A DNA stretch of 64,000 nt, taken from contig JAEEWW010000006.1 of assembly GCA_016287815.1 (NCBI GenBank), positions 1 to 64,000 of the forward strand, given 5' to 3'. Position 1 is the first letter of the stretch. Every line of letters begins with the position of its first letter. The notes below the pieces were generated by a model. The model did no database searches and was not told the DNA's origin. It saw only the letters and a list, made by a program, of their open reading frames with translations. The translations under genes and the position numbers were made by a program. Below are positions 100-13,553 of this stretch, one piece after another. Origin of the DNA: Treponema sp. Lineage in GTDB: Bacteria > Spirochaetota > Spirochaetia > Treponematales > Treponemataceae.

Positions 100-190
100 C
101 TTTTCAAAGAACTGATTGTCAGTTGAGAGCGTTGAGTGCTCTTTCGTGACGGTGATTGAGACTATATACCAAACCGCACTTTTGTGTCAA
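100..190 (-). promoter_or_regulatory. rRNA operon promoter with boxB-boxA antitermination leader
   Basis: On the minus strand a consensus -35 TTGACA (185-190) and a -10 TATAGT (161-166, 18 bp spacer; TATATA at 163-168 gives 16 bp) are followed by a hairpin AGAGC/GCTCT (126-142, 7-nt loop). Next comes CAGTTCTTTGAAAAG (100-114), which matches the bacterial rRNA boxA antiterminator (core GTTCTTTGAAAA). Strong promoter, boxB-like hairpin and boxA in this order are typical of rrn leaders. I infer that a 16S gene starts just beyond base 1. No rRNA body is inside the window. Confidence 0.75.
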
Positions 191-497: not shown

Positions 498-530
498 AAA
501 AAAACATACAGACGCGGCAAGGCTGCCGCG
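498..530 (-). terminator. Rho-independent terminator of the response-regulator operon
   Basis: On the minus strand, about 20 bases after the response regulator stop, CGCGGCA and TGCCGCG (513-519/524-530) form a 7-bp GC-rich stem with a 4-nt loop. A 7-T run (498-504) follows after a gap of eight bases. The position suits the end of the map-SBP-HK-RR transcript. Confidence 0.6.
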
Positions 531-552: not shown

Positions 553-1368
553 CTATTTTTTTATTACACAGGCACCCTGCTTTACAAATTCCGTCGGGTT
601 TATTCCGGTATACGAACGGAAAACTTCGTAAAAACGCTTATAATCGGAAAATCCGCAAAGCGAGGCAACTTCATAAACCCTATACTTATTCTCAGATAAA
701 AAATTAACGGCTTTCTGGACACGATAGCGGTTTAAAAAATCAAGGAAAGTTGTTCCGGTATATTTTTTGAAAAGTCTGCTAAGATAACTCGGGCTGACTT
801 TTAGCTGTTCTGCAAGAGTTTCAATATTTGGATGCAGGGCATAATCTTTTTCTATGCATTTTAAACAGGTGTTTATTGCAGGATTTTCCGAAACAGTTTT
901 CAATACAATCTGCTTTTCTACGATTGGATTTTCAACCTGCAAGGCATCACTTTCTATATTTGCAATTTTTTTAAGGCTGTTTAGCTGATTTTTCTGTTTT
1001 ACGGCCTCTTCAGCTTTTTTAACGACTTCTTTTAATTTTGATTCATCCAGAGGTTTTAAAACATAGTCAAAAACACGAAGATTTATAGCCTGCTGTGCAT
1101 AGGAAAAATCAGAATAGCTTGTAAGGATTATCGGAATAAAGTTAAAGCCATCTTTCTGAGCCTGCTTTATCATCTGAAGACCGTCAAGGCGCGGCATACG
1201 AATATCACTTATTACAATATCCGGAGTAAATTCCTTTATCATCTGCAAGCCCTGCTCTCCGTCGCATGCACTGCCAACAACAGCTGCATCCATCGAAAGC
1301 CAGTCTATTGTATATTGGAGTCCGTTTCTGATTATTTCTTCATCTTCAACAATTAAAACACGCAGCAT
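553..1368 (-). CDS. Response regulator, receiver plus AraC-type DNA-binding domain (YesN/HptR-like)
   Basis: This is a 271-residue transcription factor. An N-terminal CheY-like receiver (about 1-120) shows the acidic pair E8/D9, phospho-acceptor D55 in VISDIRMP, T83 and K105 in YVLKP. The C-terminal 100 residues are an AraC/XylS double helix-turn-helix (PSYLSRLFKKYTG, then EVASLCGFSDYKRFYEVF). It is the last gene after a YesM-type kinase, with a 71-bp gap, and a terminator follows its stop. By the paired-gene arrangement it should be phosphorylated by that kinase and activate genes for the ligand of the upstream binding protein. Target genes are not visible in this window. Family assignment is firm; the stimulus is unknown. 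Confidence 0.93.
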   Translation of the reverse strand: MLRVLIVEDEEIIRNGLQYTIDWLSMDAAVVGSACDGEQGLQMIKEFTPDIVISDIRMPRLDGLQMIKQAQKDGFNFIPIILTSYSDFSYAQQAINLRVFDYVLKPLDESKLKEVVKKAEEAVKQKNQLNSLKKIANIESDALQVENPIVEKQIVLKTVSENPAINTCLKCIEKDYALHPNIETLAEQLKVSPSYLSRLFKKYTGTTFLDFLNRYRVQKAVNFLSENKYRVYEVASLCGFSDYKRFYEVFRSYTGINPTEFVKQGACVIKK

Positions 1369-1439
1369 AAACTTCCTTACAGGCTAACCTGTATTCTAAT
1401 CATTCCGCAACCCAGAGACAGCCAGTTCACCGATTCAAC

Positions 1440-3140
1440 CTACCTTATCACCGGCAACGTAACTTTTATCTTTGTTCCGCTTTCTTTTGAACTTTCTATT
1501 TTGAGCCCGAAAGAATCTCCATACATAAGTTTAATGCGACGCTGGGCATTGTGCAAACCCGTGTGACCGCTTTCATTCTGTTCAGATTTTAAAATTGAAC
1601 GGACTGATTTTAACGTTTCTTTATCCATCCCGGAACCGTTGTCATGCACAGAAATTACAAGACGACCGGAAACCGACCGGGCTGTAATAGAAACATGCAT
1701 TTTATCGATTCCTTCAAAACCATGCTTTACACTGTTTCCTATTAGCGACTGCAATATAAGTTTTGGAATCTGACAGTTTTTTACACTGTCCGGAACATCA
1801 ATTGAATATGTAAATCTTTCTCCAAAACGGAGCTGAAGAATATACAGGTAATTTTCTATGTAATGCAAATCTTCACTTATCGGCATAACAGAAATTCCGC
1901 TGTCTATACTGTAGCGAAGCAGTTCAGAAAGACATACTATAGTTTTTTGCGCACGTTCAGGATCCAGCTTTATTAAAAACTTAATCGTTTCAAGCGTATT
2001 GAACATAAAATGCGGATTAAACTGCATTTCAAGCTGCTTAAGTTCTGCCGTGTATTTTTCCCGAACTTCCCTGCGGTTTTCTTCAATAAGATTATGAACG
2101 TCGTCAAGCATGTTGTTAAACGCATTTGCAATAGTCTGAAATTCAATGTTACTTTCAACAGAAAGACGGCCTTTAAATGTTCCTTTTGAAACACTTTCAC
2201 AGGCAGCAACAATCTTATCAATCGTCACGGTTTTTTCTTCGGCAATCTTTCCTGCGCTTATAAAAAGTCCGCTTACAACCAGAGAAAGAAATATAAAAAT
2301 TGAAAGCAGCAACAGAAGAAATGTTGTTTTTATAAAACTTACATCGGAAAAAGTATAAATTTCAAAACAGTTATCCAGAGTTCTTGCGTGATAAACGGCA
2401 GATTCTTCCACATGAAAATAGTTTTTTTCATTACGATATTCTGATTTTATTTCATTAAGTTGATTTTTATAACGGGAATCAGAAGCATATAAAAACCGAC
2501 CGAACCCATTTGAAATTGCAAACCGAAGGGAAGGCTGTAAAATATCCTTTATCTTTTCCGGCGAAAGAAAAAATATAAGACAGAACGGCTTTTTATCCCT
2601 GCTAAAAAAAGCGTGTCCTACAACAATTTCCGGCTTTGCAAGACCATTATAATCCGCAGAAACTTCTACGATTGTTTTTTCAGGATTTGATTTTATTCTG
2701 CCAAGAGCACCCCATGGCGATGAATTCTGCCATTCAGGAATATAAAAAACACGCTGAGAATTCCCCTGTAAAACCACCGAAGAATTCTCGTCAAGTACAA
2801 CAAAATCTGCTTCTATTTTCTGATTAAGCGTAAAATTCTTTAAAAGTGAATATACATAGGCAGGATTATCTTTTAATACAATATTGTCACCAAACGGATT
2901 TTCTTCACAGAATTTTTTATATGAAGAAATTTCTTCTTCCAGCAGAATTGAAACTTTCCGGTTTTCTTCAACGCTTTGGGTATAAAGACGCCAGTTCCAT
3001 AAAAACGCACAGGTAATTATAACAACAAATGCAAAACCAACTGCAGGACCCAAAGCATAAAGAATAAATGAACGTCTTATTTCGTCTTTAAAATAAATCT
3101 TTGTTCTGTCCATCTTTGTCTCATCTTTGTCCTGCATCAT
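1440..3140 (-). CDS. Membrane sensor histidine kinase, YesM/HptS type
   Basis: This 566-residue kinase has TM1 at about 24-50, an extracytoplasmic sensor of about 215 residues, TM2 at about 272-294, a HAMP-like linker, then a His_kinase domain with phospho-acceptor H377 in QFNPHFMFNTLE. The HATPase_c domain shows an N-box (GNSVKHGF), DNGSGMD and GLHNAQRRIKLMYG. This architecture is that of the LytS/YesM family. The reading frame overlaps the end of the binding-protein gene by about 20 bases. An internal ATG at 3113 would start just after that stop, and neither start has a clear ribosome site, so the start is uncertain. It probably signals to the AraC-type regulator downstream. Confidence 0.93.
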   Translation of the reverse strand: MMQDKDETKMDRTKIYFKDEIRRSFILYALGPAVGFAFVVIITCAFLWNWRLYTQSVEENRKVSILLEEEISSYKKFCEENPFGDNIVLKDNPAYVYSLLKNFTLNQKIEADFVVLDENSSVVLQGNSQRVFYIPEWQNSSPWGALGRIKSNPEKTIVEVSADYNGLAKPEIVVGHAFFSRDKKPFCLIFFLSPEKIKDILQPSLRFAISNGFGRFLYASDSRYKNQLNEIKSEYRNEKNYFHVEESAVYHARTLDNCFEIYTFSDVSFIKTTFLLLLLSIFIFLSLVVSGLFISAGKIAEEKTVTIDKIVAACESVSKGTFKGRLSVESNIEFQTIANAFNNMLDDVHNLIEENRREVREKYTAELKQLEMQFNPHFMFNTLETIKFLIKLDPERAQKTIVCLSELLRYSIDSGISVMPISEDLHYIENYLYILQLRFGERFTYSIDVPDSVKNCQIPKLILQSLIGNSVKHGFEGIDKMHVSITARSVSGRLVISVHDNGSGMDKETLKSVRSILKSEQNESGHTGLHNAQRRIKLMYGDSFGLKIESSKESGTKIKVTLPVIR

Positions 3141-4200
3141 TCATATAATTATGAAATTCTGCCCACCACTGTTTTTGTTTTTCAACAGCGTAAGAATAAT
3201 CTGCACTTATACTATGAATCTCTTTTTCACTCAAAAAAAGATTTTTTATTTCTACGTCACTTCTTACTGAACGCCGGTTCAGCTGACGCGAAATATAATT
3301 TTGAACCGGAAGATCCGTAGCATAATCTATAAAAAGTTTTGCATTTTCAGGATTTCTTGCATTTTTTAAAAGACATATTCCATCCGGCGTAAAAACAACG
3401 CCTTCTTTCATGTAAACAATAAGAATGTTATCATCGTTTTCCGCATAGTTTGCAGCACCTTCTTCAAAAGTAAGCCCGACCGCAAACTGACCTTTTGCAA
3501 CACCATCATAAACTGCAGAAGATCCGCTTTGAAGTTTTCCATCGATATTTTTGCATAACAGATGAACATAATTCCATCCGTTTTCCGGTTTTCCGTTACC
3601 CATGGCAAAAAGCATATTTATCAGATGCTCCCACGAGGATGAAGATGTTTCAGGGTCTGCAAACGCAATCTGACCACGCAAAAGCGGATTAAGCAAATCT
3701 GCATATCCTTCAACCTTGATTTCACCAAGCCTTTTTTTGTTTATCATAAGAACACTTGGAACATTCGAAAACCTTGTAAACATTCCTTCTGTATTTTTAT
3801 ACGCCTCAGAGATAAAAGGTTCATTTTTACTGTGATAATCTTCAAAAAAAGTTGAAAAAGGAAATACTGTAGTATAAGAACCGCCCCAAAGCACGTCATA
3901 CGGAACACTATCAGGATAACGGCGAAGATTTGCAATAATTTCGCCTGTTCCGCCCTGAACAAGTTCAACATCTATATTGTATTCGTTTTCAAAGTTTTCG
4001 ATTATTGGATTTATAAGCGCAAGCGGATGCGGGCTTGCAATTACAAGAGTGCGTTTTTCATAAGGCCTGCCACGGTTGCCGCTGTTAGCAATTTTTCCAA
4101 CATTGCCGCTGCTGCCGCTATTATTCCCGCTGTCGCTCTCAGCAAACAAAAATGCCAGAGAAAAAATAAAAACAGGAAGAAGCAGACCTTTTAATTTCAT
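3121..4200 (-). CDS. Periplasmic substrate-binding protein, AfuA/FbpA/HptA-like
   Basis: This 359-residue protein begins with a classic signal peptide (MKLKGLLLPVFIFSLAFLFA, cleavage likely before ESD) and a Ser/Gly/Asn-rich linker. The mature part resembles class-II binding proteins of the iron(III)/sugar-phosphate group: TLVIASPHP, then VELVQGGTGEI, YDVLWGG and PSVLMINKKRLGE. No permease or ATPase gene is adjacent; instead a kinase and regulator follow without a gap. This is the layout of HptA-HptS-HptR and PgtC-PgtB-PgtA, where the binding protein acts as a sensor for sugar phosphates. Ligand is inferred only from this layout. It starts seven bases after map. Confidence 0.8.
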   Translation of the reverse strand: MKLKGLLLPVFIFSLAFLFAESDSGNNSGSSGNVGKIANSGNRGRPYEKRTLVIASPHPLALINPIIENFENEYNIDVELVQGGTGEIIANLRRYPDSVPYDVLWGGSYTTVFPFSTFFEDYHSKNEPFISEAYKNTEGMFTRFSNVPSVLMINKKRLGEIKVEGYADLLNPLLRGQIAFADPETSSSSWEHLINMLFAMGNGKPENGWNYVHLLCKNIDGKLQSGSSAVYDGVAKGQFAVGLTFEEGAANYAENDDNILIVYMKEGVVFTPDGICLLKNARNPENAKLFIDYATDLPVQNYISRQLNRRSVRSDVEIKNLFLSEKEIHSISADYSYAVEKQKQWWAEFHNYMNDAGQR

Positions 4201-4206
4201 CTTTCG

Positions 4207-4968
4207 TTATCTTTTATAATCCAAATCTGTAAGAACTTCTGTGTGATCTGCAAAAATTGCAACAGTATGCTCTTCATGTGCAGAAGTACGTCTGTCACAG
4301 GTTAAAACAGTCCAGCCGTCTTTTGAATCAACTTCAACGTCGGCAGTACCAAGATTTATCATCGGTTCAATAGCAACAACCATTCCCGGTTGAAGCCGCG
4401 GATTAGCTCCACGGGAAGGCACGTTTGGAATATTCGGATCTTCGTGCACATCAAGTCCTACTCCATGGCCGCAATAATCATAAACAACACCGTAGCCGTG
4501 AGCAGAAGCTATGTCATATACAGCTTTAGAAATATCACTTATTCTGTTACCGGCTACACAGGCATTAATTCCGGCTGCAAGACATTCACGGGTAACGTCA
4601 ACAAGCTTACGCACTTCAGGCTTTACATTACCAACCAGAACTGTATGAGTAGAATCACTAATATATCCGTTAAGGTTTATCCCGACATCCAGAGAAACAA
4701 TATCTCCGTCGCGGATAATTTTTTTTGGCGACGGAATACCGTGAATAACTTCTTCATTTATGCTTATACAGGCAGCACCCGGAAAATTTTCCATGTACCA
4801 GGCAGGTGTTCCGCCGTGCTCAAGCATAAAATTTTTGCATAAATCGTCTATATGCTTTGTAGAAACCCCGGCTTTTACCTGTGGAATTACAAATTTAAAC
4901 ATATCTGCAAGAAGGTGACAGGATTTTCTTATGCCTTCAATTTCTTCTTCATTCTTAAGTCTAATCAT
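4207..4968 (-). CDS. map: Methionine aminopeptidase, type I
   Basis: This 253-residue cytosolic enzyme removes the initiator methionine from nascent proteins. The five metal ligands of the family can be placed: D94 (SLDVG), D105 (SDSTHT), H168 (GHGVGLDVHE), E201 (IEPMI) and E233 (HEEHT). H76 and H175 are the usual substrate-contact histidines. Length matches type Ia enzymes without a zinc-finger extension. It lies 15 bp after the J-domain gene and directly ahead of the sensory trio, so it may supply their basal transcription. Assignment is secure. Confidence 0.97.
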   Translation of the reverse strand: MIRLKNEEEIEGIRKSCHLLADMFKFVIPQVKAGVSTKHIDDLCKNFMLEHGGTPAWYMENFPGAACISINEEVIHGIPSPKKIIRDGDIVSLDVGINLNGYISDSTHTVLVGNVKPEVRKLVDVTRECLAAGINACVAGNRISDISKAVYDIASAHGYGVVYDYCGHGVGLDVHEDPNIPNVPSRGANPRLQPGMVVAIEPMINLGTADVEVDSKDGWTVLTCDRRTSAHEEHTVAIFADHTEVLTDLDYKR

Positions 4969-6370: not shown

Positions 6371-6988
6371 TCATTCTTTTTGGCGTTTAAGGGCTTTCAG
6401 AACAAAGACATTTTCACGATCCCGTTCTTCAAGAACTCCTTCAATATATTTTTTGGTATCCTTTGTCTGAGGAATAACCATTTTATCCAAAGCATTTACA
6501 CGCCGCTGCGTTTTCTTCACTTCGTTAGCAAGACGCCACACAATCGTTCTTATGGAAGCCATCTGGGTCAAAAGCGAAAGCAGTTTAAAAAAATCCGCCA
6601 TTACCTTATCATTTTCTGGAAGAGTTCCTAAAAATGAATAGAACAACTGGCGCTGCGGCAGTTCCACATCAATCGTGCGGAACCTCATACCGCCTATTGT
6701 AGCAGACTTTTCTTCAATTGTAAAATCGTAATGTATACAACTTGCCATCTGCTCAATCTGTTCACCGCCGGTTGCTATAAGCATCTTCTTAAGTGCCGGA
6801 TAGGCTTCTGCTATGACATTTTCTATTTCGCTTTCAAGCATCCTTACTTTTTCAACCATGCGCATCAATTCCAATACAAGAATTTCCCGCTTCTGTTCCA
6901 GAAGATCATAACCGCCTTCCGAAATAGTAAGCTGGTCGCTCATTTTGAGTAAGTTTGACTTTGTCGGAGCAATGTTCAGTTTTGCCAT
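6371..6988 (-). CDS. atpD: V-type ATP synthase subunit D (central rotor shaft)
   Basis: This 205-residue protein has the subunit D pattern: an N-terminal helix MAKLNIAPTKSNLLKM, a long coiled-coil with EGGYDLLEQKREIL, and a C-terminal helix with VWRLANEVKKTQRRVNALDKMVIP. It forms the rotating central stalk inside the A3B3 head, driving or driven by ATP turnover. It is the last structural ATPase gene in the cluster, 18 bp after subunit B. Assignment is secure from both motif and position. Confidence 0.96.
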   Translation of the reverse strand: MAKLNIAPTKSNLLKMSDQLTISEGGYDLLEQKREILVLELMRMVEKVRMLESEIENVIAEAYPALKKMLIATGGEQIEQMASCIHYDFTIEEKSATIGGMRFRTIDVELPQRQLFYSFLGTLPENDKVMADFFKLLSLLTQMASIRTIVWRLANEVKKTQRRVNALDKMVIPQTKDTKKYIEGVLEERDRENVFVLKALKRQKE

Positions 6989-7006
6989 TTTACGCCGTCT
7001 TTAACC

Positions 7007-8395
7007 TTAAAAGTATTCTCCCTGCTCAGGCATGTACTTGTCAATCAAATCGCTCTTAATTCTGTACAAATCTTCGCGCGGCAGAATAGAAAGAATCTTC
7101 CAACCGATATCAAGAGTTTCTTCTATCGTGCGGTTTTCATATTCGCCCTGAGTAAAGAATTTCTGTTCCAGCTGTTCACCAAATTTAAGGTAACGCTGGT
7201 CAATTTCAGAAAGTTCTTCTTCACCGATAATTGCTGCAAGGTTTCTGATTGACTTTACTTTAGAATATGCTGCAAAAAGCTGGGAAGCAACACCTGCATG
7301 ATCTTCGCGGGTCATATTTTCACCGATTCCGTCTTTCATCAAACGGGAAAGACTTGGAAGACCTGCAACAGGCGGATACAAACCTTTCTGGAACAATTCC
7401 CTGTCAAGTACAATCTGACCTTCTGTAATATAACCTGTAAGGTCTGGAATAGGATGAGAAATATCATCATTCGGCATTGTAAGAATAGGAATTTGTGTAA
7501 TTGAACCTGAAGCACCTTTTATGCGTCCTGCCCTTTCGTACAATTCGGCAAGGTCAGAATACAGGTAGCCAGGATAGCCTTTACGACCAGGAACTTCTCC
7601 ACGTGTTGTAGAAATTTCACGCAAAGCTTCGCAGTAGTTTGTCATATCTGTCATTACAACAAGAACATGCATGCCTTTTTCAAACGCAAGATATTCTGCA
7701 GCTGTAAGCGCACAACGCGGGGTAATAATACGTTCAATAGAAGGAGAATCTGCCAGAGACTGGAACATTACAACCTTTGACAAAACTCCTGATTCTTCAA
7801 AAGTATCAATAAAGAATCTTGCAACGTCATATTTAATACCCATGCCTGCAAAAACCATAACGAACTGTTCATCACTGTTTTTTAACCGTGCCTGACGGAT
7901 AATCTGTGCTGCAAGCCTGTTGTGCGGCATACCGTTTCCGCTGAAAATCGGAAGTTTCTGACCACGGATTAATGTGTTCATTCCGTCGATAGAAGAAATT
8001 CCAGTCTGGATAAAATCACGTGGATAAATTCGGGCATAAGGATTTATCGGGTTTCCGTTTACGTTTACAAAATCGTTTGAAACAATAGGCGGATATCCGT
8101 CAATCGGTTCTCCCAAACCGTTAAAAATACGGCCTAAAAGTCCTTCGCCAACACGAAGCTCAAGCGGCTGATCCAAAAATTCGTAAGTTGTTTCTCCAAG
8201 GTCAAGCCCTGTTGTTGAACCGAAAATCTGAACAACGGCTGCAGTTTCAGAAAGATCTATTACACGACCTGTGCGTTTTTCACCCTGACGGTCGCGTACA
8301 TAAACTGTTTCACCATAAAAAATATTTTCTGTACGGCGGACAACAATGATAGGCCCGTCTATGGAAGTTACTCCTCTGTATTCAACACCTTTCAT
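7007..8395 (-). CDS. atpB: V-type ATP synthase subunit B (regulatory nucleotide-binding)
   Basis: This 462-residue non-catalytic head subunit lacks a P-loop; the equivalent position reads [17 protein letters not shown], as usual for B subunits. Further family blocks are [34 protein letters not shown] and [18 protein letters not shown]. It alternates with A in the A3B3 hexamer. Its ATG overlaps the TGA of subunit A (ATGA), indicating translational coupling. Confidence 0.97.
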
Positions 8396-10179
8396 GCTAT
8401 ACCCACCTTATGATAAATCTGTTCAAGTTCCCCAAGCTGATCTTCAAGATGTCCTTCAACAATCTTGATTTTTTCAAGCTGGTCATTAGGAATTTCAGAT
8501 TTTATACGAGTAATTTCTTCTTTTACCGGCAAAGAATTAACCCTTACAAGCGGAGCACCGGCTTTTATAACAGCCAGAGAACGTTTATAGAAGGTCATCA
8601 TCAGTACAAGAATTGCAATCTGTTTTTCGGCAACACAATAAGTATCTACCGGATCAAAAGAATTCTGCTGTAAGAAACCGTTCTTTATCATATCAGAAAC
8701 AATAAGAACAAGACGCTCAGTTTCCGGCAATGCATCAGGTCCTATAAGGCGGACAATCTGCTGCAACCTCTGTTCTTTTTTAAGAAGCTCAATCGCCTGA
8801 AGACGAACTGTTGCCCAGTCAGGATTCTGACTTTCCCACCAGTCTTTAACTTCATCTGCGTATTCTGAATAAGAATCTATCCAGCTGATTGCAGGATAGT
8901 GACGTGCATTTGCAAGTTCGCGATCCAATCCCCAAAAACAGCGGATAAAACGTTTTGTATGCTGGGTAACAGGTTCAGAAAAGTCACCGCCTGGCGGAGA
9001 AACTGCTCCAATAATAGAAACTGAACCTTCTTTGTGGTTAAGGGTTGTAACACGTCCGGCTCTTTCATAAAATTCCGCCAGGCGGGTCGGTAAATATGCC
9101 GGGAAACCTTCTTCCGCAGGCATTTCTTCCATACGTCCGGAAAGTTCACGCAATGCTTCGGCCCAGCGGCTTGTAGAATCTGCCATAATTGCAACAGCCA
9201 TTCCCATATCGCGGAAATATTCGGCAAGAGTAATTCCCGAATACAGCGAAACTTCTCGCGCTGCAACCGGCATGTTTGAAGTATTTGCAATAAGGATTGT
9301 TCTTTCCATTAAAGAACGGCCTGTGCGTGGGTCAATAATTTCAGGGAATTCGTTAAGAACTTCCGTCATTTCGTTACCGCGCTCTCCGCAGCCGATATAT
9401 ACGATTAAGTCTGCATCACACCATTTTGCAACAGCATGCTGCGTCATTGTTTTTCCTGTACCAAATCCGCCTGGAATTGCTGCCGTTCCACCCTTAGAAA
9501 GCGGGAAGAAAACATCAATTACGCGAAGACCTGTAACAAGCGGCTCGCTTACAGAAAGTTTCCTAAAATAAGGACGAGCCTTACGAACAGGCCAATACTG
9601 AGAAAGTTTTATTTCTTCATCAAATTCAGTAGTTGCAATTACATCATCAACAGTGTAGTCACCAGTACCTGCAAAAGTTTTTAAACTTCTTCCACGAACG
9701 GTTGGCGGAACCATAATTGTATGTAAAATTGAACTTGTTTCCTGAACAGTTCCCAAAGGATAGCCTGGATTTATTGGAGTACCAACCTTTACATCTTCTC
9801 CGGCAGCAGTTTTTCCTGCTTCAAAATGCCATTTTTTCTGCAAATCCAAAGCTTCTGAAGTTTGCCCTGCAAGCAGGAACGCTCCTTTATCTTCATACAT
9901 CGATTTTAAAGGACGCTGAATACCATCGTAAATAGTTCCAACAAGTCCAGGACCTAAATGAAGTGATAAAGGACGTTCAGTACAATATACTTTTTCGCCT
10001 ACATGAAGGCCAGAAACATCTTCATAAACCTGTAAAGTGGCCATTCCTTTATTCTGACGTATAATTTCGCCTGTAAGACGTTTTTCGCCAACATGAACAA
10101 CATCGTATAAGCCGCAGCCTTCAAGGCCTTCTGCAAAAACAATCGGGCCGGAAACTCTGGTTACTTTTCCTTCAATCAT
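8392..10179 (-). CDS. atpA: V-type ATP synthase subunit A (catalytic)
   Basis: This catalytic head subunit has 595 residues from the ATG at 10179, which has GGGAGG eight bases upstream and overlaps the subunit E stop by ATGA. An in-frame TTG 18 bp upstream is less likely. The P-loop is at about 237-244 and reads GGFGTGKT, with Gly where many V-type A subunits have Pro. Later blocks include [36 protein letters not shown] and [13 protein letters not shown]. The approximately 90-residue non-homologous region typical of A subunits is present (about 110-200). Assignment is secure. Confidence 0.97.
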
Positions 10180-10814
10180 TCTGGAATCCTCCCGCAAAAC
10201 AATTTTTCAGCCAGTGACTTTCCCTGCTTTTCTTTTATTTCACAGACAAGCTCTTCAAGGGTTAACCTGCATTTTACAGATTTATCCTCTGCTTCAAGAA
10301 TTACACCTTCATGAACTGTAATTCCACCGGTTTCCAGCTGACCTGTTTTTTCAAAAGATGTTTTCTGTACAGAAAGTAAATCTTTACCTAATTCAGCGGA
10401 TAAATATTTTTCTACACCTGAAACTTCAAAACCGTAAACAAGTGCGTTAATTTTCTTATTTGCAAAAATATTCCGAGCTTTACTAAAAAGAGTTTTAATT
10501 AATTCAAAACGCTTTTCCTGGGAAATGGATTTTAAATAAGAGTCAATTGCTTCAGATACAGACTTATCAATATAAGAAACAAGATATCTTTGTTTTTCAA
10601 GAGGAAGAGCAGCTTCTCCGTTGTGCTGAAATTGCTTTAATTTTGCATCATAGAAACTGTTCCTTTCTTCTTCAGATTTCTTTAATCTGTTTGAAACATC
10701 AGCAAGAATGCGGCTTGATTCAGATTCAGAATCAGTTAACGTTTTTTCTGCTTTTTTTCTTGCATCTGAGAGAATCTCTTTATCAAGTGCTTCTGTAGAA
10801 CGTAATTCTTCCAT
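10176..10814 (-). CDS. atpE: V-type ATP synthase subunit E (peripheral stalk)
   Basis: This 212-residue protein has a long charged N-terminal helix ([24 protein letters not shown]) followed by a mixed C-terminal domain with [28 protein letters not shown]. That pattern (GG.....G.i..d.....TLe..) is typical of E subunits, which with G form the stator stalk. Sequence identity in this family is low, but order between F and A fixes the call. GGGGA lies upstream of its ATG. Confidence 0.93.
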
Positions 10815-10831
10815 GCTCTTTTCCCCGTAAT

Positions 10832-11167
10832 TTAAACTTCTATGCCGATAGCTTCCCGGATAGAATCTGTAAGCGTTTTCTTGCCCTGAAGATGGCCTTG
10901 AATTCCAGGGATTTCAACAATCAAAGGATAATCTCCGCCCTGCTGCCATTCAAGGACTTCTTCTTCAATCATAGCAGTAACGCTTTCCGTTAAAATGAGA
11001 ACTTTAGGACGGCCGCCTTCAACCGGCGCAGACAATGTTCCACCCCGTCCTGTAATTCTGTTAAAAGCCTCTATGGCTTCATCGCGAGTTAAAGCTACGG
11101 CGCCCTGCACTCCCACTAAAGAAAATGCCAGCACCAGCTCCCGCTCACCGATAATAAAATATTGCAT
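10832..11167 (-). CDS. atpF: V-type ATP synthase subunit F
   Basis: From the ATG at 11167 this is a 111-residue protein starting MQYFIIGERELVLAFSLVG, the standard subunit F beginning. A central TESVTAMIEEEV is also typical. The longer reading with 15 extra residues would run backwards into atpK. The chosen start shares bases with the atpK stop (TAATG). Subunit F sits on the central shaft with D and modulates ATP hydrolysis. Confidence 0.93.
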   Translation of the reverse strand: MQYFIIGERELVLAFSLVGVQGAVALTRDEAIEAFNRITGRGGTLSAPVEGGRPKVLILTESVTAMIEEEVLEWQQGGDYPLIVEIPGIQGHLQGKKTLTDSIREAIGIEV

Positions 11168-11463
11168 TACAGAATAATAATAAGAAGAGCTACAAGGAAT
11201 CCCCAAAGACAAATACCTTCGGCAAGACCAACGAAAGGAAGAGCTTTACCAGAAAGTTCTGCATTTTCGCTCATAGCACCCATAGCAGCAGCACCAATCT
11301 TACCTACGGCCATACCACCACCGATACATGCAATACCAACTGCCAGAGCTGCAGCAAAGTATTTTAATACAGAAGCGCCTGAAGCAGCACCTGAAGCATC
11401 CTGTGCAAAAAGAGCAGCACCTGTAAGCAATACTGTTGCAAAAGCAAATAATTTTTTATTCAT
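11167..11463 (-). CDS. atpK: V-type ATP synthase subunit K (c-ring proteolipid)
   Basis: This short 98-residue proteolipid has a signal-like N-terminus (MNKKLFAFATVLLTGAALFA, then QDASG) and only two further membrane helices: Gly-rich helix 1 (VGIACIGGGMAVGKIGAA) and helix 2 with the ion-binding Glu in GLAEGICLWGF. It is therefore a single-hairpin c subunit, as in Thermus, not the duplicated four-helix NtpK of Enterococcus. The residues around the Glu do not show the Q plus ES/T-x3-Y sodium pattern known from F-type rings, which favours protons, though this is inference. AGGGG precedes the ATG. Confidence 0.93.
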   Translation of the reverse strand: MNKKLFAFATVLLTGAALFAQDASGAASGASVLKYFAAALAVGIACIGGGMAVGKIGAAAMGAMSENAELSGKALPFVGLAEGICLWGFLVALLIIIL

Positions 11464-11564
11464 AAAAACACCCCTATAACAAATTTCTTATATTAAAACC
11501 TGATGTCTGAATTCTTTCAGTACAACAGAATTTTGCCTGTTTTTCAGAAATAACTTTTTTTTAA

Positions 11565-13553
11565 TTATTCCTGACTTTCTCCGTAAGAAAATTTAAATGG
11601 CTTAAATTCCCTGCCGGTTTCGTTAAAGAACTTAGAAAAGAATTCATAATACTGCAAACGTATTACCTGAATTGCAACAATCATTCCTTCAAGAACTATA
11701 ACAACTGCGTTACCGATAATCAGAATCACAATTCCGCCGGCACCACCAACCATGTGAGTCATAGTATGAATTATATAACCCAAAACTGCATGTGAAAGGG
11801 CAAATGCACCAACACGCATAAAACTGATTGTATTAGAAAGATAATTAGAAATTACTTCGATAATTTCTACGATACCTGCAATCAACGCAGCACCAAAACC
11901 GTTTTCCAGAACAGGACGCTCTCCGTCTACAATTCTTTCAAAAACTTCACCGTAAGCGGCAAGGAACAAAGTTAAACCAATTATAATCCAGTCGTAAACA
12001 GCAGGTTCATGCTTAAATGCCGCAATACGGATTGCAAAAGAAATTACATACCAGAAGAACAGCGCACCTGCAAGACCTGTTTTTCCAAATAAAGCAGAAC
12101 CGATTTTTCTTCGGTTAATATTATTCAAAATATTAATGATAAGTCCGCAGCTGTTAATTACAAATCCTACAGCAATAGAAAAACCAAAGAACATGAACAT
12201 ATTCTTAATTGATTCCGGATTAGAAGACGGCATCATCTTTAAAATCGGAGCACGCGGAGTTCCAAAAAGCCCGGTAACGAATTCTGCAAACGGTTCAAGA
12301 AGACTTTCATTAGAAAAGAATTCACCGGTAAGAAGTCCCATTATTGAAGAACTTATACCGATTGCGATAAATACAGGAGCAAACTTGTTCCAGTTGCCAA
12401 CTTTTACAATCTTCAAAGCCATCAAAACACCAAGAAGAAGGAAAACAAGTCCCTGTCCGCAATCGCCGAACATAATTCCAAAAAGAATTGTAAAGAACAG
12501 CGCAACAAACGGGGTCGGATCAATGGCACCATAAATCGGTGAACCATAACTGAAAATCATGCGTTCAAAAGCTCCGACCAAAGAGCCGTGTTTCAATTCA
12601 ACAGGAACCTTTACATGTCCTGCTGCAACCGATGGAACTTCCGAAGGCTTAAACTCACGGATTGCAATACGGCCTTCTGTAAGTTTATCCAGTTCCTGCA
12701 TAATAGAAGCAGAAGCATATTCAGGAATCCATCCTGTGATTCTGTAAACCATATGAGTAGATTCAAGTTTATTTTCTGTTGCCCGAACCTGATATGCCAG
12801 AGAATAAGATTCAAGAAGCTTAAACAGCATGTCCTTATGTGTATCAGCAAAGTTCTTTCTTTCTTCAGCAACTTTTTCAAGGTCTTTTTCGGCTTCCAAA
12901 GTCTGATTTTTAAGGCCTTCAAGAACATTGTCAGGAATTCCTTTAAAATCCTTCGGGATTTCCATTTCAGAAAAACCAAAGCGCTTTAATTCTGTATCCA
13001 GCGCAAAACGTCCTTTTTTAGAAGAAGCTGCAAGAATTGTTGATTTATCATTTCCAAGCTGAATAATTGCCGCTCTTTCGCCAATGGCAAATTTTAATTC
13101 TTCAAGAACGGCAGGATCAATTTTACCGATTCTTAACGTTAAAAAAGAAAGATGTTCAAGATCTGAATAAGCTGCCTTTAAATTAGAGAAAGCAAGTGCT
13201 TCACGATAAGTTTCTTTTATTCTTTTAAGGCTTTCAGACATTTCAGATTCACGTTTTTTCAACGCTTCTACAGAATCCAAAATAGATTTAGCCTTTGCAA
13301 AATCATCATATTCTGGCAAAGAACAATCAAGATTTACTTCAGTGCGATCAGCAATATTCAAATATACTCTTGCCTGCTGAAGTTCCTGATAAATTTCTTT
13401 TTCTTTATTCGGCTTCTGACCGGCTTCGCCGCTTGCCGTTATTGTATCTTCAAACTGAAAAACGCCCTTTTTCCCTAAAAACGCAATGACTTCTGTAATA
13501 TCCTGTTTTAGAGTCATAAGTTCAATAAGGCGCATTTGCGTTGTTCTTGCCAT
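11565..13553 (-). CDS. atpI: V-type ATP synthase subunit I (membrane stator, a-type)
   Basis: This 662-residue protein has a cytosolic N-terminal half (about 1-330) with coiled-coil hairpins, and a C-terminal half with about seven to eight membrane helices (FVALFFTILFGIMFGDCGQGL, then ISFMRVGAFALSHAVLGYII). The Arg in ISFMRVGAFALSH matches the conserved proton-channel arginine region of a subunits. GAGGTAGGAAA precedes the ATG. A 101-bp gap separates its stop from atpK, with no convincing terminator. Confidence 0.96.
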   Translation of the reverse strand: MARTTQMRLIELMTLKQDITEVIAFLGKKGVFQFEDTITASGEAGQKPNKEKEIYQELQQARVYLNIADRTEVNLDCSLPEYDDFAKAKSILDSVEALKKRESEMSESLKRIKETYREALAFSNLKAAYSDLEHLSFLTLRIGKIDPAVLEELKFAIGERAAIIQLGNDKSTILAASSKKGRFALDTELKRFGFSEMEIPKDFKGIPDNVLEGLKNQTLEAEKDLEKVAEERKNFADTHKDMLFKLLESYSLAYQVRATENKLESTHMVYRITGWIPEYASASIMQELDKLTEGRIAIREFKPSEVPSVAAGHVKVPVELKHGSLVGAFERMIFSYGSPIYGAIDPTPFVALFFTILFGIMFGDCGQGLVFLLLGVLMALKIVKVGNWNKFAPVFIAIGISSSIMGLLTGEFFSNESLLEPFAEFVTGLFGTPRAPILKMMPSSNPESIKNMFMFFGFSIAVGFVINSCGLIINILNNINRRKIGSALFGKTGLAGALFFWYVISFAIRIAAFKHEPAVYDWIIIGLTLFLAAYGEVFERIVDGERPVLENGFGAALIAGIVEIIEVISNYLSNTISFMRVGAFALSHAVLGYIIHTMTHMVGGAGGIVILIIGNAVVIVLEGMIVAIQVIRLQYYEFFSKFFNETGREFKPFKFSYGESQE

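Follow-up and report, generated by a model that had tools for sequence, protein, structure and literature searches.

A candidate HptASR-like sensor and its predicted AfuABC-like importer in Treponema sp.

The sensor trio

The window analysed here is the 64-kb stretch at the start of contig JAEEWW010000006.1 (contig C149) in the 2.73 Mb assembly GCA_016287815.1 of Treponema sp.; position 1 of the window is position 1 of the contig. At 553-4200 on the minus strand, three intact open reading frames (ORFs) form a tight operon that encodes an exported HptA-like solute-binding protein (SBP1), a YesM-type histidine kinase and an AraC-type response regulator. An earlier note on this DNA had named these three genes, and the ORFs, Pfam domains and PDB matches confirm the assignment. 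We suggest that they encode an HptASR-like three-component sensor controlling an AfuABC-like importer, in this genome in trans, and put the probability of this reading at about 0.72.

3121-4200, minus strand: SBP1, exported HptA-like solute-binding protein, proposed sensor subunit, 359 aa (Pfam, PDB match, alignment, tree)
1440-3140, minus strand: histidine kinase of the YesM/LytS type, 566 aa (Pfam, alignment, structure model)
553-1368, minus strand: response regulator with a receiver domain (D55) and an AraC-type HTH_18 domain, 271 aa (Pfam, alignment)
3121-3140, minus strand: 20-nt overlap of the SBP1 and kinase genes (ORF coordinates)

In brief, SBP1 has SBP_bac_6/SBP_bac_11 domains, the kinase has His_kinase (PF06580) and HATPase_c domains with HAMP slightly below the cut-off, and the regulator has Response_reg and HTH_18. 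The best PDB match of SBP1 is HptA of Staphylococcus aureus (6lki/6lkg; E 8.8e-36 for 6lki), followed by P5PA (E 4e-19) and AfuA (E 1e-16), and an SBP1 orthologue likewise has HptA as its best match. The lipobox cysteine is missing in SBP1 of the window, unlike in most orthologues. A structure model of SBP1 (mean predicted local distance difference test score of 41, from 8 sequences) was too poor for inspection of the pocket and was not used. The two genes overlap, which points to coupled translation of SBP1 and the kinase.

The kinase consists of a tandem-PAS (dCache-like) ectodomain at approximately residues 41-275, a HAMP domain, a His_kinase domain with the NPHF histidine H377, and HATPase_c. 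The predicted structure of the ectodomain has the tandem-PAS/dCache fold (Z 16.8, 218 residues aligned and a root-mean-square deviation of 3.6 to 3lif); HptS chains are not among the structural matches listed for it, which shows nothing either way. The model of the kinase domain is closest to GanS of Geobacillus stearothermophilus (6swj/6swk, Z 19), a comparison that covers the kinase domain alone. GanS belongs to a galactan context. H377, D55 of the regulator and the other catalytic residues are invariant in alignments of the orthologues.

A kinase search over 200 genomes of the genus gave orthologues, 45-51% identical, in ten other genomes. These include Treponema parvum, two subspecies of Treponema socranskii, Treponema sp. 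Marseille-Q4130, and metagenome-assembled genomes (MAGs) from rumen and gut; a partial match at 35% in genome G064 was left out of the count. A first search, with SBP1 in 59 relatives, gave no orthologue above 36% identity, because most genomes of the genus do not possess the system. Since the orthologues occur in the same order in the ten other Treponema genomes and in five assemblies of Clostridia, the trio is not a chance juxtaposition.

The importer and its putative promoter element

Directly after the trio, each of the ten orthologous Treponema loci has genes for a second solute-binding protein (SBP2) and a fused permease. Where the sequence extends far enough, an ATPase gene is the next one, with genome G150 (RGIG8917) as the exception. 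The order V-ATPase, universal-stress-like protein, DnaJ-like protein, map and sensor trio is common to the window and genomes UBA1798, RUG12850 and RUI140. The loci of UBA1798 and RUG12850 are the same locus as that in the window, since the upstream neighbours (V-ATPase, DnaJ-like, map) match.

The genome of the window carries the orthologous importer on another contig, C101, among other neighbour genes. Here the permease and ATPase genes adjoin SBP2, and the ATPase gene is cut by the contig end. Identity to the orthologous loci is 76-83% for SBP2, 83-85% for the permease and 85-86% for the ATPase. The best PDB match of SBP2 is AfuA (E 1e-59), and in the tree SBP2 groups with AfuA and P5PA (support 99/97). 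A uhpT/pgtP-type gene elsewhere in the genome, for which the earlier note had proposed a search as a possible target of the regulator, was not found: the only TIGR00881 match in the genome, which is 94% complete, reaches 48 of the 408 bits required by the cut-off, and a target gene of this type, from the major facilitator superfamily (MFS), was rejected.

A conserved 65-nt element lies upstream of SBP2 in all 11 sensor-bearing genomes (the ten loci and C101). It has the form GTTCA-N5-C(G/A)GGATA(T/A)TTT ... (A/G)TTG-N9-A(A/T)TTC(C/T)-N3-(C/T)TTA-N-(A/C)AT. We interpret its 3' part as a probable sigma-70 promoter with a 17-nt spacer and its 5' part as a predicted activator site. Among seven diverged loci, the mean pairwise identity is 0.87, 0.64 and 0.66 in three parts of the element block, compared with 0.21-0.26 in the upstream flank and 0.31-0.35 in the downstream flank. 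With a leave-one-out matrix from which C101 was omitted, the C101 site scored 21.3 and the next best position within C101 scored -23.3; nothing exceeded -13.5 in the other sequence of the same genome that was tested. Autoregulation of the trio by this element was dropped, as the best matrix score in the window is -15.9 and no site is present there. A phased second half-site (21-bp direct repeat) within the element was seen in some loci; it is not conserved and we do not claim it.

A pattern search of the 200 genomes, allowing up to 3 mismatches, found the element in 11, exactly those with a kinase orthologue; the other 189 are without it. The reversed pattern, used as a control, gave zero matches. 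The element occurs once per genome, before SBP2, except in G150, which has two copies. There, several kilobases lie between the ATPase gene and the SBP2-permease pair, and the ATPase gene is preceded by a copy of its own (locus L140, 5134-6709). The importer permease was found in 32 of the 200 genomes, 21 of them without the sensor, and none of these 21 has the element. Genome G134, with a permease nearly identical to that of G150, lacks the sensor as well as the element, and the regions upstream of SBP2 in these two genomes have nothing in common. In the genome of the window, the importer is detached from the sensor yet the element is retained.

The regulator gene lies 552 nt from the contig start, next to these features:

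513-530, minus strand: terminator-like hairpin directly 3' of the regulator gene, 7 pairs of which 6 are GC (hairpin search)
161-190, minus strand: rRNA-type promoter TTGACA-18-TATAGT, followed by the rRNA leader to position 1 (likeness to the C113 leader)
4207-4968, minus strand: map, type I methionyl aminopeptidase, 6 nt upstream of SBP1 (homology, neighbourhood)

The hairpin is a weak feature, as hairpins of this kind are about as frequent in the region as in shuffled sequence. Positions 1-380 of the window are 95% identical to the leader of a 16S rRNA gene carried by another contig of this genome, C113, so the contig of the window stops approximately 86 nt short of a 16S rRNA gene; a related promoter sequence also stands ahead of 16S in two complete relatives. 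Assemblies commonly break at rRNA operons. That no transporter gene is seen downstream of the trio partly reflects the contig limit, and it appears from the leader that an rRNA operon, not the importer, follows. The earlier note had described the trio as being without any transporter. This holds for the 552 nt, in which there is no permease or ATPase; for the system it does not, as the importer adjoins all ten orthologues and its orthologue lies, with the element, on C101.

Proposed mechanism and alternative explanations

The mechanism that we infer draws on gene order and homology, on the conservation of the catalytic residues and of the element, and on the joint presence and absence of sensor and element. 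SBP1 would bind a phosphorylated sugar on the outer side of the inner membrane and contact the tandem-PAS ectodomain of the kinase. The kinase would then autophosphorylate on H377 and pass the phosphate to D55 of the AraC-type regulator, which is predicted to bind the 'GTTCA-N5-CGGGATATTTT' part of the promoter upstream of SBP2, fused permease and ATPase and to activate these genes. In the orthologous loci the predicted target is the next gene set, and in this genome it would be controlled in trans on C101.

As the earlier note had proposed for this spirochaete trio of the HptA-HptS-HptR kind, SBP1 is most likely a sensor and not a transport subunit, judging by the separate importer SBP, the overlap with the kinase gene and the conserved trio. 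It is rather improbable that SBP1 is an ordinary transport subunit feeding an ATP-binding cassette (ABC) permease elsewhere, with the kinase sensing some other signal directly through its ectodomain. The nearest non-sensor relatives of SBP1 (41-42% identical) do lie in SBP-permease-ATPase operons without a kinase and form the sister group of the sensor clade, moderately supported at 83/74, and the ectodomain has a fold known from domains to which small ligands bind directly. However, each permease-bearing importer locus examined in this genome has its own SBP, and SBP1 is always found beside the kinase and regulator. The earlier note had named, as contrary to its proposal, a binding protein that clusters with ABC importers and has permease partners elsewhere requiring it. 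This is not what the tree and the gene neighbourhoods show: the sensor SBPs form a monophyletic clade spanning two phyla (97/97), and no member of it was seen in a kinase-less importer operon where the neighbourhood could be read.

Hexose phosphate is our leading guess for the ligand of SBP1 and SBP2 and is a plausible one, firmer for SBP2 than for SBP1. H205, D206 and E229 of AfuA are essential for binding of glucose 6-phosphate (PMC4546632), and these residues, together with T150, are all identical in SBP2 of C101, UBA1798, RUG12850 and Lachnospiraceae. SBP1 and the Lachnospiraceae sensors have S, E, G and mostly T at the positions of T150, H205, D206 and E229, and HptA, which binds glucose 6-phosphate (PMC13419708), has T, Q, D and N there, in part unlike AfuA. 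That the architecture is right and the ligand is another one, e.g. 2-aminoethylphosphonate, pyridoxal phosphate, triose phosphate or ferric iron, is unlikely, though it deserves serious consideration. The best NCBIfam names for SBP1 and the importer are those of 2-aminoethylphosphonate subunits, the SBP2 clade contains the pyridoxal-phosphate binder P5PA, and SBP1 differs from AfuA at the sugar-contacting residues. On the other hand, P5PA is without two of the three essential residues that SBP2 keeps, HptA is by far the closest solved relative of SBP1, and the equivalog cut-offs of the NCBIfam 2-aminoethylphosphonate importer PhnS2/T2/U2 are not reached by SBP1 (82 bits against 393), SBP2 of C101 (183 against 393) or the C101 permease (285 against 593).

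The trio could also be an orphaned remnant, its circuit broken when it became separated from the importer next to the rRNA operon. In favour of this are the contig end at the rRNA operon, the distance between sensor and importer, and the divergence of the C101 element, which scores 21 on the leave-one-out matrix against 80-118 for the elements of other loci. We consider it very unlikely: the genes are intact with conserved catalytic residues, the C101 element has 0 mismatches at the constrained positions (the pattern was drawn with C101 included), and G150 illustrates that a detached importer gene can retain the element.

Several observations weigh against the proposed mechanism. C101 was assigned to the genome by binning, and its tetranucleotide correlation with the window (0.938) is slightly under that of the other contigs of the genome (approximately 0.98), though above all other species tested. 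SBP1 is without the AfuA H/D/E set, and the kinase ectodomain could bind a ligand directly. The element pattern was built from the very loci that were counted. Finally, two changes on the permease tree suffice to account for sensor presence, as would fit a single gain and a single loss; the co-occurrence goes back essentially to one common origin plus one loss, so that we reject a reading of 11 of 11 as eleven independent events. Because of these two changes, the contrasts offered by G150, G134 and the window outweigh the raw count. From these comparisons, we regard the regulatory link from sensor to importer as well supported.

Distribution and related systems

In five assemblies of Clostridia, including Lachnoclostridium sp. 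An14, the genes are arranged as SBP2-permease-ATPase-SBP1-kinase in one direction, with a regulator gene called in four. The Lachnospiraceae order is thus importer then sensor, whereas in Treponema the sensor comes before the importer. The Lachnospiraceae SBP2 gene is preceded by a different conserved block, which also starts with GTTCA. One Lachnospiraceae permease was placed on the tree and groups with the sensor-less Treponema importers, not with the sensor-bearing ones, so the importers that accompany this one type of sensor appear to belong to two lineages.

On the SBP tree, HptA is placed with the sensor clade, though with weak support (90/78). The sensor and importer SBPs stem from different branches of this tree. 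The sensor SBP probably arose from an importer SBP, since its nearest non-sensor relatives are importer subunits of Clostridiales and Chloroflexi MAGs. These are found in loci L137, L138 and L139 (about 7800-11700), in SBP-permease(-ATPase) operons without a kinase. We tentatively speculate, with some doubt, that a portable HptA-type sensor cassette was joined to AfuABC-type importers in two phyla and two importer lineages, each with a GTTCA-headed regulator site, and that in the lineage of the window the circuit survived separation as a dedicated, trans-acting, single-target switch by which treponemes of the mouth and gut scavenge sugar phosphates.

Most of what is known about the sensing and uptake of sugar phosphates comes from enteric bacteria and staphylococci; in these, the target of the sensor is a UhpT/PgtP-type antiporter. 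In Salmonella, PgtC controls the phosphoester transporter PgtP together with PgtB and PgtA. The pgtP gene is under a dedicated two-component system (PMC10715179); we liken PgtCBA-PgtP to the trio by description, not by sequence, and its target, unlike that predicted here, is an MFS antiporter. In S. aureus, hptASR lies next to uhpT (PMC8774646). The HptASR (HptRSA) system resembles the trio in that a single operon encodes a sensor SBP, a YesM-type kinase and an AraC-type regulator, and its sensor genes stand beside the transporter gene as in the relatives of the window. It differs in that the predicted target here is a three-subunit ABC importer with its own SBP, not the MFS antiporter UhpT, and in that sensor and target are unlinked in this genome.

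The C101 importer resembles the hexose/heptose-phosphate importer AfuABC of Actinobacillus and Citrobacter (PMC4546632) in the grouping of SBP2, the H/D/E/T residues, and the permease and ATPase alongside. Unlike AfuABC, this predicted importer is associated with a three-component sensor of the HptA kind and has a promoter element of its own. CuaDSR-CuaABC of Ruminiclostridium cellulolyticum, where one SBP senses and another transports, as demonstrated experimentally (PMC10384115), is a precedent for separate sensing and transport SBPs such as SBP1 and SBP2. There too, a sensing SBP with a kinase and regulator drives an ABC importer with its own SBP, but the system concerns cellobiose, its SBPs are of a different family (Family 1), and the sensor and importer operons are adjacent (PMC10384115).

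In the literature searched, we found no paper joining an HptA-like sensor and an AfuABC-like importer for Treponema. The proposed link is to an active importer and extends over host-associated treponemes, T. parvum and T. socranskii among them, and Lachnospiraceae. For genes that would be labelled iron or phosphonate transport by automatic annotation, it would supply a specific target promoter and a class of ligands that can be tested, and it illustrates how an 'orphan' three-component system can be assigned a target by comparison of relatives.

Several further loci were noted. The V-type ATPase genes of the window lie at 6371-10197, upstream of the DnaJ-like gene and map. On contig C120 (L012, 116-1153), a further SBP of the superfamily stands at the contig end, with no transporter gene visible there. 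Another trio of SBP, kinase and AraC-type regulator, whose SBP is distant from SBP1, is encoded on contig C145 of the genome of the window (L015, 4164-12442); an ABC operon for an SBP, a double permease and an ATPase directly precedes it in the same orientation. HptA-like SBPs are also found at the end of MalF-MalG-like permease operons (L031, 5138-11986; L032, L034 and L035). In L031, this operon is convergent with a YesM kinase and an AraC regulator, a further way in which spirochaetes wire this type of sensor. In T. socranskii-like genomes (L068, 4556-10256; also L065-L067), a paralogous kinase-regulator pair precedes a tripartite-tricarboxylate-like transporter of 327/148/506 aa, named from a look at the sequence only. 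A related GTTCATTTTTC-headed element lies upstream of this transporter in L065-L068, as if it were a sister site of the paralogous regulator.

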